Origin: Candidatus Gastranaerophilales bacterium
Lineage (GTDB): Bacteria > Cyanobacteriota > Vampirovibrionia > Gastranaerophilales > Gastranaerophilaceae
DNA: 64,000 nt
Assembly: GCA_944324435.1 (NCBI GenBank)
Contig: CALUWH010000007.1
Coordinates: forward strand, 1 to 64,000
Direction of reading: 5' to 3'
Shown here: positions 3,852 to 9,407 of the stretch, one piece after another
How positions within the stretch are numbered: position 1 is the first letter of the stretch
Layout of the letters: every line of letters begins with the position of its first letter
The notes under the pieces: generated by a model
The model's input: only the letters and a program-made list of their open reading frames with translations
The model's database searches: none
What the model was told of the DNA's origin: nothing
Program-made: the position numbers and the translations under genes

Positions 3852-4181
3852 ATGAAAATACCGGCTTCAAAAGATGTTCAAATAATAAATAAAATTTCCC
3901 AATTGCGCACTGAACTTATGTACAGTGCTGCAATGGGAAATTATAAAGGGTTTAAAAAAGCTAATATTGAATATGCAAAAATGGCTGTGGACAATTTTGA
4001 GCTGGCAAAACAGGCGAAAAGCCCAAACATCAAAGCTCCGCTTTTTTCTAAAGTTGGGATGCGAATGGCTAAAGTATGGTTTTTGAATCTTTTTAGAATT
4101 AAATCTCCTGAGGAGAAGCAATTAAAAACTTTAGCTAAACAAGAGAGATTAAAACAAGAAGCGAGGCAGTTTGTAGGATAA
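3852..4181 (+). CDS. Hypothetical protein (109 aa)
   Basis: A basic, helical 109-residue protein with no signal peptide and no recognised domain. It contains KIPASKDVQ near the N-terminus and a Lys/Leu-rich C-terminus. Its stop overlaps the start of the next gene in TAATG, so the two are probably translationally coupled. The link to the phosphohexomutase is the only functional hint. Confidence 0.6.
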   Translation: MKIPASKDVQIINKISQLRTELMYSAAMGNYKGFKKANIEYAKMAVDNFELAKQAKSPNIKAPLFSKVGMRMAKVWFLNLFRIKSPEEKQLKTLAKQERLKQEARQFVG

Positions 4182-5554
4182 TGAGTATCAGTTTTGGAAC
4201 AGACGGTTGGAGAGCGGTTTTAGATAAGGATTTCACCAGGGGAAATGTCGAGCGAGTTACGTTGGCTATCGCAAAGTATGTTGCTGACAATTTCGGGTTT
4301 ACTAAGCCTTTACTTGTCGGTTATGACCCGAGAAGGATGGCTGATGAGCTTTCCGGGTATTGTGCTGAAATTCTTACAAAAAAAGGGTTTGATGTATATT
4401 ATTCAGAACGAGTCGTTCCGACGCCTGTTTTGGCATACAATGCAAAGATTAAAGATGCTTGCGCTATAATGTTTACAGCCTCCCACAATCCGCCGGAGTA
4501 TTTGGGGATGAAATTTATTCCGGACTACGCAGGGCCTGCTACATCAGAGATTACGGACGAGATCGTAGGGAATTTAGATAAACCTTTTGAGACATCAGGC
4601 AGGCAGGGCAGCTTTATTCGGACGGATTTTGCGCCCGAATATTATGAACATCTCAAAAAGCTTATTGATTATGAATCTATAAAAAAAATTAAAACAAATA
4701 TTATTTTTGACGGGCTGTATTCAGCTTCCATCGGGTATTTTGACGAGATATTGAAAAGTAACGATATTCCGTTTGAGAGTTTGAACATGTTTCGGGATAC
4801 AAACTTTGGCGGAGGAATGCCCGATCCTAAGCCCAAGTATTTAAACGATTTGATTGAGGCTGTTAAAGCCAAGCCAAATTCTATCGGACTTGCAAATGAC
4901 GGTGATGCTGACAGATTCGGGGTCATAAATGAAGACGGCGAGTATGTTTCTCCAAATGAGATTATTGCAATTTTGCTTAAACATCTTATTCAAAAGGGCT
5001 TAAAGGGTGCTGTGGTTAAGACTGTAGGCTCAAGTCTTTTGATAGATGTTGTTGCAAAGAAACTCGGAGTTGAAGTTATAGAAACTGCGGTCGGGTTTAA
5101 GCATGTCGGCGATGCTATGCGCAAAAACAAAGTCATAATCGGCGGAGAAGAGTCGGGAGGATTGAGTATTCAAGGACATCTTCCGGAAAAGGACGGACTT
5201 CTTGCAAACCTTCTGGTACTTGAAGCTATGGCAAAATCCGGCAAGGCTTTGAAAGATTTACAAAAAGCCCTGTATGAATTTGCAGGAGACAGGTTTTACA
5301 CTGACAGAATTGATTTGAAGCTGGAGGATAAATCTCAAATTCAAGAGATTTTAGAAAAAGCAAAACATTATAAAACGATTGGTCAATACAAAGTTTCATC
5401 AATAGATACAAAGGACGGCGTTAAGCTTATGCTCGATGAAAAAACGAAAATCTTAGTACGTCCGAGCGGAACGGAACCTCTTTTGAGAATTTATTTTGAA
5501 AGTGACAATATTGATAAAATTGAAGAGCTAAAAACATCGATAAAGCTTATTTAA
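4181..5554 (+). CDS. Phosphoglucomutase/phosphomannomutase family protein
   Basis: An alpha-D-phosphohexomutase of 457 residues that would interconvert hexose 1- and 6-phosphates for sugar-nucleotide synthesis. The family landmarks are present in order: FGTDGWRA at the N-terminus, the phosphoserine loop TASHNPP with Ser101, the Mg-binding loop DGDADRFG at 240-247, the sugar-binding GGEESGG, and the phosphate-binding RPSGTEP at 427-433. The exact substrate (glucose, mannose or glucosamine phosphate) cannot be decided from these motifs. It resembles the form annotated simply as phosphoglucomutase/phosphomannomutase in Cyanobacteria. Confidence 0.95.
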   Translation: MSISFGTDGWRAVLDKDFTRGNVERVTLAIAKYVADNFGFTKPLLVGYDPRRMADELSGYCAEILTKKGFDVYYSERVVPTPVLAYNAKIKDACAIMFTASHNPPEYLGMKFIPDYAGPATSEITDEIVGNLDKPFETSGRQGSFIRTDFAPEYYEHLKKLIDYESIKKIKTNIIFDGLYSASIGYFDEILKSNDIPFESLNMFRDTNFGGGMPDPKPKYLNDLIEAVKAKPNSIGLANDGDADRFGVINEDGEYVSPNEIIAILLKHLIQKGLKGAVVKTVGSSLLIDVVAKKLGVEVIETAVGFKHVGDAMRKNKVIIGGEESGGLSIQGHLPEKDGLLANLLVLEAMAKSGKALKDLQKALYEFAGDRFYTDRIDLKLEDKSQIQEILEKAKHYKTIGQYKVSSIDTKDGVKLMLDEKTKILVRPSGTEPLLRIYFESDNIDKIEELKTSIKLI

Positions 5555-5572
5555 TATTTGTGCACCTTGCTA

Positions 5573-5600
5573 TTTACATTTTTACTCTTCATGGTAGAAT
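5573..5600 (+). promoter_or_regulatory. Promoter of the 5620 leader
   Basis: TTTACA (5573-5578) and TAGAAT (5595-5600) are separated by 16 bp. The -10 is extended by TG at 5592-5593. The predicted start near 5607 lies just before the leader ORF's ribosome binding site. Confidence 0.65.
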
Positions 5601-5619
5601 TGTACAAAAGGATAAGATA

Positions 5620-5694
5620 ATGACATTTATGACAGCAAGACATCATCATACTCATATAGACCCGGAAGGGCCCGGAGTTTTGCTGCTTCTCTAA
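5620..5694 (+). CDS. Leader mini-ORF rich in His and Leu (24 aa)
   Basis: A 24-codon frame starts at ATG 5620, preceded at a suitable distance by AAAAGGAT (5606-5613). An internal in-frame ATG lies at 5629. The peptide contains RHHHTH followed by IDPEGPG and ends VLLLL-stop. The clustered His and Leu codons recall amino-acid-responsive attenuator leaders, or a ribosome-arrest peptide. Its second half is embedded in a strong RNA stem-loop. The gene downstream is not a biosynthetic gene I recognise, which is odd for a classical attenuator. Confidence 0.5.
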   Translation: MTFMTARHHHTHIDPEGPGVLLLL

Positions 5695-5723
5695 AAACTC
5701 CTTTACCCATCGGCTCTTTCGGG
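5661..5723 (+). promoter_or_regulatory. Nested RNA stem-loop in the leader
   Basis: An outer 12-bp stem pairs 5661-5672 with 5712-5723, including two G-U wobbles. Inside it an 8-bp stem pairs GGAGTTTT (5674-5681) with AAAACTCC (5694-5701), with a 12-base loop. The Leu codons and stop codon of the leader ORF lie in the inner arm and loop. There is no T-tract after either stem, so it is not a standard intrinsic terminator. It ends 46 bases before the next start codon. Confidence 0.6.
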
Positions 5724-5769
5724 ATATCAGTCAAGAGATAAAGAGTACGATATATAAAGGAGAATTTAA

Positions 5770-6978
5770 ATGTCACTAGTTAATATAATATCAGCAATCG
5801 GTAATAATTCCAGCATCTACCCTCTGATTGTAAGAGATTGTGGAATTGAGATTCCGTCTAAAGTTGCAATGACCTATAATCAGAATCTCAAGGAATCAAA
5901 ACAGATGGCATATAATGCGACACGAGAGCGTCTTATAGATGAATACGGAACATCAGTAATCTGGCTTGGCGGAATCCCTGCTATTGACAGCCTTTGTAAT
6001 TTGGGCATCAAAAAGCTCGGGTATAACCCAAAAGTCAATCCAAACCTCTTAAAGGAGAGCGGTAAACAGGGATTGAAATATAATATGGAAAAATTTAAAT
6101 CTCTTGCTCCGGAGGAAGTCAAGGAGATGGAGAGGGTTCTGAAAAACAAATCAACTTACCAGAAACTCCTTGCAGGTAGGTTCATCTTGTCTACGGCAAT
6201 ACCTGTAGCATTAATGGGGTATTTTCTTCCCAAATTCAATTTTGCACTCACGGATAAAATCAGAAAAAAACAGGAAAATATGAAGCCTGTCATTAAAGCT
6301 GCGATTGAAAACAAGCAAAATATTTCTTTTAAGGGAATTTCTGCGACACTTGCGAACATGTCTACCGTAAACAAAATGGCTATTACAGATGGTGGACTCA
6401 CCGTTGGCCGAGTGGGGACTGCAAGGAATAAGTTTGAAAAAATGGAGATGGGATTCAAAATGGCGATGATGATGTTTTTGAACTTCGTATTTCCGATTTG
6501 GCTGGCAAAAGGTTTAGATTCATTATCAGGGAAACTTTTTAACACAAATGTTAATCTCGACCCAAACTTATTGAATAACAAATCTTTTATTGCGGAGATT
6601 AAGAATAACGCGATGGAATTGCCTAAAGATAATATTATAGAATTTTTAGACACTAAGCCTGATAGCACATTTTCAAAACTAAGTGAAAAGTATTGCGGAG
6701 TTAAGTATTTGAAAAACAGAATAAGAGATCCGAGAGAATTTGTAGACGAAAAGAAAATCAAAGCTTTTCAATCCGAGATTGAAAAATTCGCAAAACAGGC
6801 AATAGAAAGCGGCAATGTTGATAAGTTTGCAAATAAAGCTCTAAAAGTAAAATCAGCAAATATCCTTGCAAATGTAGGAATAAGCAGTTTTCTTCTTGCT
6901 GCAGCTCTTCCAAAATTGACATTTATTCTCCGTAAAAAAGTTACGGGCTCAGATGCAGAGCCGGGTTTGATAAAATAA
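5770..6978 (+). CDS. Hypothetical membrane protein (402 aa)
   Basis: No family recognised. Three hydrophobic segments are visible at about residues 138-154, 231-247 and 365-387, separated by basic, helical stretches, so it is probably an integral membrane protein. An ISFKG motif occurs at residues 185-189, similar to a short motif seen in other unknown proteins of this window. The start is well supported by AAAGGAG seven bases upstream. It is the first of three consecutive unknown genes and lies behind a structured leader with its own promoter. Confidence 0.75.
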   Translation: MSLVNIISAIGNNSSIYPLIVRDCGIEIPSKVAMTYNQNLKESKQMAYNATRERLIDEYGTSVIWLGGIPAIDSLCNLGIKKLGYNPKVNPNLLKESGKQGLKYNMEKFKSLAPEEVKEMERVLKNKSTYQKLLAGRFILSTAIPVALMGYFLPKFNFALTDKIRKKQENMKPVIKAAIENKQNISFKGISATLANMSTVNKMAITDGGLTVGRVGTARNKFEKMEMGFKMAMMMFLNFVFPIWLAKGLDSLSGKLFNTNVNLDPNLLNNKSFIAEIKNNAMELPKDNIIEFLDTKPDSTFSKLSEKYCGVKYLKNRIRDPREFVDEKKIKAFQSEIEKFAKQAIESGNVDKFANKALKVKSANILANVGISSFLLAAALPKLTFILRKKVTGSDAEPGLIK

Positions 6979-7048: not shown

Positions 7049-8725
7049 ATGGGAATATTATCAGAGTTAAGAAATTTCGCCTGCGAAGTTTTAGGAATTG
7101 ATATGGGAATTCCTAAACCACGCAAAAGCGAAGATATATCTAAAGAGGCTGTCATACAGTGTCAGAATGTTGAGCAGCCCGGTGATAAGCTGGAAATTAA
7201 TCAGCAGGAAACAAGACCAAACGGGATTGTACAAAACTTAATGGCGCTAAAAGATACTATAGAATTAAAATGTACAAAATATGGATTTGATGGGACAGAT
7301 TTATTAAAAAATGGGCTTCTCGGAAAAATAACCGGACTTTCGGACGAAATGCTGAATCAGCTTTCAGACGGAGACAAACAAAAGCTTTTAGGATGTATTG
7401 ATTTAATTCTTTCAAAATTTCAAAATTATCGCAACAATGGAGAAATAAGCGAGGATGCAAATATAAATGAGTTAATTACGGAGAACGTAAAAGTTTACTA
7501 CGGTGCATTAAAAAGCGGTGTGTTTGAGGATCTGCAGGAGTATGAAGAGGCAAAAGGCGATGTTAATGCCGAACTCGGTGCAGAGTTTAAAACAATGGAC
7601 AGAGTCTCCCAAAGAGCTGTTTTAACCGGAGTGCGGCAAAAAGATGAAGCAACCTTGAAGCAAGAACTTCAAGAAGTGCAAAATCTGCCGGAAGAAGAAC
7701 GTACAGAGGCGGAGCAGAAAATACGGACACGACATCAGCACATCCAGCGTGGAAGATTTATGGATATTGTTAATGTTAATTCTTCCGAAACGGCCTTGGA
7801 ATCATTGATTATGTTGTGTTCCAATGATCTTGAAAACGGAACAGCCACAATTCTTGCAACACGTTGCAGCGCTGAAGAAAGGGTCAGAACTGCAGACTTA
7901 GCAGATTATACATTTTTTAAAGCATTAGCAGAAAATTATGACAGTGTTGGTGATACTTTATCCCAAGAAGTTATTGAACGATACACTGCCTTAATAATGA
8001 GTGCAAAATCTTCAGAAGCAGCAGCACTTTATCAGGAAGAGGTTAAACAAGACTTTAAGAACTATGAGGAAAAAATTAAAAGAGGAGAAGAGGTCCCTAA
8101 ACATTTAAAAGCTCTTTATGAAGGAAGTAAAAAAGGGATTGAACAAATTTCAACAGAATTAAAAAGAGAAATTCATCAGGAATTGAAAACAGAAGAAAGC
8201 GTGATAATACAAAATTCAAAACGTCAGGAGGCTTTGGAAGAATTTTCTGAAACAGTGATTCTTCCGGGAAATAACTATGCAGTAAATGAGAATCCTTCTT
8301 CGGCAGAACGTGAGGGAGAAGATGTAAAACGGCTTCTTGAGAATAACTATGTTGAAAAAACAAACCGAGGGGCACCCACAAAATCAAAAACTGTAACAAG
8401 TCCGATAGCAATTGCACGTGTTATTAAGCAGGAAGGGCTGCAAGAAGCTATAAAGCAATATGACACAGGAAATATTATCGAAACAATTCTCGAAGACGGA
8501 AATTTGAGACATTTACGTACCAGACTTGTGACGATTATAAAATCTGCGGATGTAAATTCATTGAGGAAAATTACCGACACCTGCTCTGACAGTGCTTTTA
8601 TCTTTATATGCAGCATTGTAAATCCGGACGATGTAGAAACCCTCAGAGAAAGCCGTGGACATTTATGTTATACTGCAAGAAAAGAAATTGAGGCTATAGA
8701 AAGTAAAGACTATGCAAGTATTTAA
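7049..8725 (+). CDS. Hypothetical large helical protein (558 aa)
   Basis: No family recognised. The protein has no signal peptide or membrane segment and is rich in Glu, Lys and Leu, suggesting a mostly helical, soluble product. Acidic heptad-like stretches (about residues 175-240 and 330-400) could form coiled coils. The middle contains several SSE(T/A)ALE and SSEAAALY-like helical pieces. GGGGAA precedes the ATG. It follows the membrane protein gene by 70 bases, and its end overlaps the next gene by 14 bases, so the products probably act together. Confidence 0.75.
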   Translation: MGILSELRNFACEVLGIDMGIPKPRKSEDISKEAVIQCQNVEQPGDKLEINQQETRPNGIVQNLMALKDTIELKCTKYGFDGTDLLKNGLLGKITGLSDEMLNQLSDGDKQKLLGCIDLILSKFQNYRNNGEISEDANINELITENVKVYYGALKSGVFEDLQEYEEAKGDVNAELGAEFKTMDRVSQRAVLTGVRQKDEATLKQELQEVQNLPEEERTEAEQKIRTRHQHIQRGRFMDIVNVNSSETALESLIMLCSNDLENGTATILATRCSAEERVRTADLADYTFFKALAENYDSVGDTLSQEVIERYTALIMSAKSSEAAALYQEEVKQDFKNYEEKIKRGEEVPKHLKALYEGSKKGIEQISTELKREIHQELKTEESVIIQNSKRQEALEEFSETVILPGNNYAVNENPSSAEREGEDVKRLLENNYVEKTNRGAPTKSKTVTSPIAIARVIKQEGLQEAIKQYDTGNIIETILEDGNLRHLRTRLVTIIKSADVNSLRKITDTCSDSAFIFICSIVNPDDVETLRESRGHLCYTARKEIEAIESKDYASI

Positions 8726-9407
8726 AAGTTTATTATACAAAATCTTGAGTATGCAGGAAAAATACCTGCGCTACCGTCTTTCAAAGACCATAGGCGTAAA
8801 AAATGTTTCTAAAAAAAAGAGACATTATTCGGACGGGTGTCTGCTTGATTTGAGCACGCTTGCAGAAAGTGAAAAACAAAAGCTTGAAGAAGAACTTACC
8901 ACAATTCTTACTGAAGCCGATTTTGAACCGGAAAAACTTTTAGAATACATTCAATCACACGGTACAAAAGTATGCAGAATAGATAATGCTTCCTCAATCC
9001 TTAACCCTATAGGTGAAAACGAAGGACTCATATATCCTGCCAAAGGAAGTAAGGCTCTCTATCTTTCGCTTGCGCTAAATAAAACATTTTCTCTTAAAAC
9101 AGATGAAATTTTTGTGTTATCAAACGGAGAGATTAATAAATACTATTTTATCTACCATTTTTATAACTGGTTTGCGTTCAAACATAATATTGCCGGCATG
9201 GATACGGAATCTCAAGAACTTTTGAAAAAATATCTTTTTGAAACTTCTGATACAAGCCGGCTGCAGCTTGCAGAGATTTATAAGCTTAAAGATGCAATCC
9301 GTCAGGACAAAGCGTCTATTGAATTTGTAATAAAGCTCTGCAGAAACTATGAAGGAGCAAAGCAAGCCCTAACCAAGTTAAAAGATGAAGGCGGAGCAAA
9401 TCTTTAG
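8712..9407 (+). CDS. Hypothetical protein (231 aa)
   Basis: No family recognised. The N-terminus is basic (RYRLSKTIG, SKKKRH) and the rest is a mixed, probably globular domain, with conserved-looking aromatic residues around YYFIYHFYNWF. The start overlaps the end of the preceding 558-residue gene by 14 bases. The Shine-Dalgarno is weak (AAAG), which fits translational coupling; an alternative start is the Met at residue 14. Its 3' end overlaps the stop of the opposing gene by 4 bases. Confidence 0.65.
   Translation: MQVFKSLLYKILSMQEKYLRYRLSKTIGVKNVSKKKRHYSDGCLLDLSTLAESEKQKLEEELTTILTEADFEPEKLLEYIQSHGTKVCRIDNASSILNPIGENEGLIYPAKGSKALYLSLALNKTFSLKTDEIFVLSNGEINKYYFIYHFYNWFAFKHNIAGMDTESQELLKKYLFETSDTSRLQLAEIYKLKDAIRQDKASIEFVIKLCRNYEGAKQALTKLKDEGGANL

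Follow-up and report, generated by a model that had tools for sequence, protein, structure and literature searches.

A probable ribosome-mediated histidine attenuator upstream of a histidine-free membrane-type protein gene in Gastranaerophilales

Histidine attenuators have been described in Proteobacteria and in a small number of Firmicutes, where they precede his operons and histidine transporters (PMC9413887). We analysed a 64,000-nucleotide stretch of a Candidatus Gastranaerophilales genome (hereafter the window; positions 1–64,000 of contig CALUWH010000007.1), in which a leader at 5573–5769 is placed between a phosphoglucomutase-type gene (4181–5554) and a gene encoding a 402-residue protein (5770–6978). 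Judging from its sequence and from that of its relatives, this leader is very probably a ribosome-mediated histidine attenuator that controls the 402-residue protein gene.

Compared with the enterobacterial his operon leader (RF00514, His_leader), which acts by transcription attenuation, the leader in the window's genus has no U-tract terminator and would instead sequester the Shine–Dalgarno sequence (SD) of its target. It also adds two helices (P4 and X, described below), and its target is not a his biosynthesis gene, in a genome that lacks the three his genes tested. The Firmicutes attenuators, from the Bacillus cereus group, Peptostreptococcaceae and Erysipelotrichales, likewise have a short peptide, with 3–5 His codons, immediately before the attenuator hairpins, but they precede the his operon and/or the hisZ*YX transporter (PMC9413887), whereas the target here is a protein of no known family in histidine auxotrophs of the Gastranaerophilales. 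An SD-sequestering variant of attenuator has also been noted (PMC9413887); the window leader resembles such systems in having a hairpin that sequesters the ribosome-binding site (RBS) in place of a terminator, and amino-acid codons within the leader open reading frame (ORF). The LEU element upstream of actinobacterial leuA (PMC1262725) contains a pseudoknot, as we propose here for X. Its Leu codons themselves pair with the SD, whereas here a separate anti-SD does so, and, like the other SD-sequestering attenuators, it differs from the window leader in amino acid, taxon and target. A histidine T-box, found before histidine transporters in Firmicutes, would likewise sense tRNA-His charging, but sensing in the window leader would run via a translated ORF; a T-box was rejected as a candidate, as the Rfam scans of the window gave no T-box match.

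More generally, the Rfam scan of the window, at the gathering score and at E-values up to 10, gave nothing relevant, and, of the sister leaders, two give weak matches to RF00514 in the correct orientation, L133 at 24.8 bits and L135 at 26.1 bits, with a gathering score of 49. The literature that we searched contains no paper describing such a leader in the Gastranaerophilales group. New here are the lineage, the target family, the combination of four competing helices with a putative pseudoknot, and the fact that the output is not the same in all genera.

The leader and its alternative folds

The sequence-only reading of this locus had proposed a promoter, an RBS, a 24-codon ORF and two nested stems (P1 and P2 below), all of which were recovered in place from the sequence and by scans. 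The features of the leader and its target are as follows.

5573–5600, + strand: promoter, with TTTACA at 5573–5578, a 16-nt spacer and an extended −10 box TGGTAGAAT at 5592–5600 (10 of 12 matches, TG before the −10 box)
5606–5612, + strand: RBS of the mini-ORF, AAAAGGA; an AAGGA-type site is present in most relatives
5620–5694, + strand: leader mini-ORF of 24 codons, MTFMTARHHHTHIDPEGPGVLLLL followed by a stop codon
5641–5655, + strand: putative regulatory His codons, CAT CAT CAT (ACT) CAT, ending about 6 nt before P1
5661–5672, + strand: P1 5′ strand (predicted anti-sequestor/antiterminator)
5674–5681, + strand: P2 5′ strand, GGAGTTTT
5688–5692, + strand: X 5′ strand, TCTCT, in the P2 loop (proposed pseudoknot)
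5694–5701, + strand: P2 3′ strand, AAAACTCC, which includes the anti-SD that P4 uses
5698–5705, + strand: P4 5′ strand, the anti-SD, CTCCTTTA
5709–5719, + strand: P3 5′ strand, ATCGGCTCTTT
5712–5723, + strand: P1 3′ strand, overlapping the P3 5′ strand
5734–5738, + strand: X 3′ strand, AGAGA
5740–5751, + strand: P3 3′ strand, AAAGAGTACGAT; no U-tract comes after it here, as one does in many other genera
5755–5762, + strand: P4 3′ strand, the SD of the regulated gene, TAAAGGAG, gated in the two-state fold
5770–6978, + strand: regulated gene, for a 402-residue helical membrane-type protein with no His and of no known family

The P1 (12 bp) and P2 (8 bp) stems pair throughout when G–U pairs are counted, and the fold of 5655–5730 reaches −28.1 kcal/mol, compared with −17.8 kcal/mol for shuffled sequences (z = −3.5, 0/200). 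When the whole leader is folded, the strand CUCCUUUA (5698–5705) can swap P2 for UAAAGGAG (5755–5762), giving P4, and the strand AUCGGCUCUUU (5709–5719) can swap P1 for AAAGAGUACGAU (5740–5751), giving P3. P1 and P3 are mutually exclusive because 5712–5719 is common to both. X would pair the P2 loop with a strand that lies past P1, which makes it a pseudoknot with respect to every other helix. In the window RNA the SD is unpaired with a calculated probability of 0.94 in the P1 state and of 0.002 in the P3 state, and the same direction of gating (open with P1, closed with P3) is found in 43 of 43 scorable relatives. The sequence-only reading lacked three features: the competing P3/P4 fold, X as a likely pseudoknot, and the association of the leader with the first downstream gene alone.

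Conservation, covariation and the proposed switch

A DNA search with the leader covered 97 genomes, the window's own genome included. The leader is present in 47 of these, again counting its own, all from one genus, which amounts to 46 of the approximately 57 other members of the genus; every copy lies upstream of an orthologue of the 402-residue protein gene. In several complete genomes without the leader the orthologue is missing too. Six genomes of the genus, 91–99% complete, have neither the orthologue with its leader nor HisD.

Helix covariation was scored on 41 aligned relatives from the genus. P1 is paired in 98% of cells and four of its 12 pairs show two-sided changes (for example in L024, AAUG/CAUU; L045, CUGAAAG/CUUUCAG; and L053). 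P3 is paired in 90% of cells, and four of its 11 pairs show such changes. The covariation scores of both helices exceed those of all 500 shuffles, and both collapse when shifted by one column. In a swap test, in which the 5′ strand from one relative is paired with the 3′ strand from another, the within-genus z-scores are −8.4 for P1, −4.0 for P2, −7.1 for P3, −4.1 for X (0/5000) and −0.6 for P4. The X pairing is maintained with different letters (CCCUG/CAGG, GUUUUU/AAAAAC, GUUCUUU/AAAGAAC and GUCUUUU/AAAAGAC). One further candidate helix (Q), in which the His-codon stretch would pair with GAGUACGAU, was dropped as its swap test was weak (z = −2.2). In one relative (L047; G052:C2, ~218590–218970) the DNA match is split in two by extra sequence inserted after the P2 region and before the P1 3′ strand, and the P1 and P3 strands are retained.

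The architecture extends well beyond the genus. A covariance model of the leader found it in nine of the 50 genera of the order, and reading the 5′ regions of the orthologues by eye added 12 further genera that the model had missed. Leaders were read in 20 genera of the family besides the window's own; in every one the sequence is rewritten, the architecture is the same and the leader always stands before the orthologue. The mini-ORF carries 3–6 clustered His codons in 21 of 21 genera, with at least three His per eight codons in all 78 leaders; the rest of the peptide differs, so that the His codons are its sole conserved feature. The mini-ORF in the other genera often stops within P1 (for example MTINLQKHHHNHHINLKRL or MFTPSVKRHHHNHHHCH, each followed by a stop), and the distance from the last His codon to the start of P1 is most often 4 nt. 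A between-genera swap test with one leader per genus (21 genera, 5000 permutations) gave z-scores of −9.0 for P1, −10.9 for P3 and −4.5 for P4, each 0/5000, compared with +0.9 for a control pair of regions. P1 and P3 thus covary both within the genus and between genera, and the refuting outcome named in the sequence-only reading, stems without compensatory changes and His codons that are not conserved, did not occur. Finally, it should be noted that the most divergent leaders, L129–L131 (g32, Ca. Gastranaerophilus) and L146 (g44), have 5–6 His codons and an alternative P1/P3-like pairing of unrelated sequence, with no clear long U-tract hairpin in g32.

A run of 5–8 U follows P3 in many genera, among them g31, g34, g36, g42, g43, g49 and g61, and the two together form a putative intrinsic terminator. 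No run of four T follows P3 in the three leaders of the window's genus in the between-genera census, and a terminator scan of 5450–5900 found no terminator-like site. The absence of a T-tract after the stems, already remarked on in the sequence-only reading, is thus confirmed; it is explained by the output in the window's genus being SD sequestration, the hairpin being a terminator in many sister genera. The window leader is therefore a predicted translational variant in which SD sequestration is the sole remaining output.

The switch would work as follows. When charged tRNA-His is scarce, the ribosome would wait at the early His codons and the P1 strand would stay unoccupied. P1 and P2 would then form, probably together with pseudoknot X, and tie up the P3 and P4 strands, leaving the SD open and the 402-residue protein gene translated (ON). 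When histidine is plentiful, the ribosome would proceed to the stop codon and disrupt P1/P2, upon which P3 would form and P4 would zip over the SD (OFF). In sister genera, the P3 hairpin with its U-tract would also act as a terminator. If the leading edge of the ribosome is assumed to extend about 12 nt beyond the first nucleotide of the codon in the A site, a ribosome whose A site holds any of the first three His codons leaves P1 intact. At the stop codon it covers the P2 and X strands in the window, and in many other genera it sits on P1 itself (the stop being about 17 nt after the start of P1). These positions imply that histidine shortage favours P1 (ON) and supply favours P3/P4 (OFF), although this direction of response, like the kinetic trapping that goes with it, is what we infer from the geometry.

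Several observations weigh against this attenuator model. About ten genomes of the genus, several of them incomplete, have neither the gene nor the leader. P4 does not covary inside the genus, which is attributable to its SD strand being invariant there. Secondary-structure energies alone do not settle the state of the window RNA, with P1 or P3 enforced giving nearly balanced values (−33.0 and −32.9 kcal/mol); co-transcriptional order and the pseudoknot should favour P1 while the ribosome waits. Finally, in a static fold with the ribosome parked at the stop codon the SD is open in the window's genus, because the parked ribosome covers the anti-SD. The OFF state must therefore form after release, P3 first and then P4.

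Competing explanations for the leader

The sequence-only reading had left attenuation and ribosome arrest side by side. Attenuation by ribosome position is strongly supported by the data above, and a nascent-peptide arrest of the SecM/TnaC/Erm type, or a His-rich chain that senses a metal instead of tRNA-His charging, appears improbable. Such a mechanism would account for the conserved His cluster in a short ORF and for a fold that depends on ribosome position. The peptide is nevertheless free to vary outside its His codons, and even their spacing varies (HHHxH, HHxHHH, HLHHH, HYxHQH). The length after the His run is variable, and the ORF may stop almost directly after it (L032, L041 and L051; g32, g35 and g44). 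The C-terminal part of the nascent chain shows no conserved residues of the kind critical for arrest, the post-His sequence being variable and sometimes absent. Moreover, the complementarity with hisD and the His-free product, both described below, point to histidine itself. Slightly less probable still is a translation-independent structured 5′ untranslated region, a riboswitch or a protein-binding element, in which the mini-ORF would be incidental. The strong conserved structure and the proposed pseudoknot would suit it, and RNA alone could gate the SD. A ligand pocket would, however, require a sequence core, and none is kept across genera; what is kept is the in-frame His codons and the pairing topology. 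Indels in the His region come in multiples of three, and no Rfam family fits except for sub-threshold matches to His_leader and Thr_leader.

The four Leu codons before the stop in the window (the VLLLL end) had also been taken as potentially regulatory, and conservation of the peptide was to be checked in relatives. The His codons are kept in every leader and the Leu codons are not: their number among the last six residues varies from 0 to 4, and many relatives have no Leu stretch. They lie after P1, where stalling would not free P1, and they coincide with helix X, so that the stretch is better read as an RNA strand. We give almost no credence to an attenuator responding to Leu starvation, or to His plus Leu. 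The histidine attenuator thus remains our preferred reading of the leader.

The 402-residue protein and its link to histidine

A protein that is needed during lack of an amino acid is expected to avoid that amino acid. Of 59 orthologues of the 402-residue protein, 47 have no His at all; in total, His makes up 16 of 24,922 residues (0.06%), compared with 1.38% in neighbouring genes, and its depletion is by far the largest of any residue. For contrast, the His counts are 4 and 9 in the two paralogues that the window's genome encodes, and 6 and 4 in the two genes downstream (genes 2 and 3).

The window's genome gave no match to HisD, HisB or HisG, and gut members of this group have been reported to lack histidine production (Di Rienzi et al., 2013; PMC3787301). 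Across 264 genomes of the family, the 402-residue protein gene occurs alone in 162 and HisD alone in 57, with both in four and neither in 41 (Fisher p = 4e-26, with no correction for relatedness). The two alternatives segregate within three genera (g43, g46 and g49). Control markers are near-universal (IlvC in 265 of 286 genomes and prephenate dehydratase in 276 of 286), and the hisD pattern is therefore not a general loss of amino-acid pathways. One of the four genomes with both genes (G150, G229, G261 and G317) has a HisD that matches the Pfam profile at 5e-181, compared with about 1e-155 or weaker for all others, which suggests a separately acquired copy in G229. Prototrophic relatives have no His leader before their his genes (7–14 kb around hisD, 20 genomes). 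A covariance-model search for a second His leader in the window's own genome gave one match only, and the pattern CAYCAYCAYNNNCAY occurs six times there, compared with four for a control pattern.

Taken together, these data make the 402-residue protein a likely histidine-acquisition factor. It would help the cell to obtain histidine, or to cope without it, and histidine import would be the simplest such role. In a broader proposal, to which we assign about an even chance, the gene founds a new membrane family that, in most Gastranaerophilaceae, replaces histidine biosynthesis by acquisition, either as the importer itself or as an indispensable component of it; its sequence would have shed nearly all His for synthesis under starvation, and in the window's genus its attenuator would have lost transcription termination and kept only the sequestration of the SD. 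For most Gastranaerophilales, metagenome assemblies are the sole source of knowledge, and a large share of their genes is unnamed. The regulation, the gene content and the amino-acid composition described here jointly suggest a role for a family without any sequence or fold match, namely coping with a shortage of histidine in animal-gut bacteria that are naturally auxotrophic for it, a function that can be tested directly. One attenuator would also combine terminator and SD gating in some genera and use SD gating alone in another, its sequence being rewritten and its pairing logic retained.

The protein itself has no family in Pfam, NCBIfam, PHROGs or PDB sequences, and has hydrophobic helices at about 62–80, 132–151, 227–246 and 360–380. 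Its AlphaFold model is all-helical (pLDDT 81, pTM 0.69). Foldseek and VIA-align returned weak long-helix matches only (best Z 7.8 over 101 residues, below the chance level for helical bundles), and no fold is therefore assigned. No His leader lies within 300 nt upstream of its paralogues in the window's genome.

The conserved target of the leader is this gene alone. Genes 2 and 3 (7049–8725 and 8712–9407) are absent downstream in other genera, and a three-gene cluster as the regulated unit, as first suggested, does not hold. Of the 20 neighbourhoods read, just two have these genes downstream, those of the window genome and of G027, its closest relative. For gene 2, the PHROG search gave a weak match (E = 9e-5) to phrog_32180, whose function is unknown.

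The −35/−10 pattern of the leader promoter is seen again in relatives. In four of these (L014, L019, L034 and L046) the ATG of the His mini-ORF lies about 6 nt after the −10 box, the others having a normal RBS, and the mini-ORF would be read there from a leaderless transcript. The host genome of the window comprises 1.95 Mb in 50 contigs and is 98.9% complete. With few exceptions, the named records that hold close relatives of the 402-residue protein are metagenome genomes from gut or rumen; they carry the label Candidatus Gastranaerophilales or Melainabacteria and include Ca. Gastranaerophilus phascolarctosicola.
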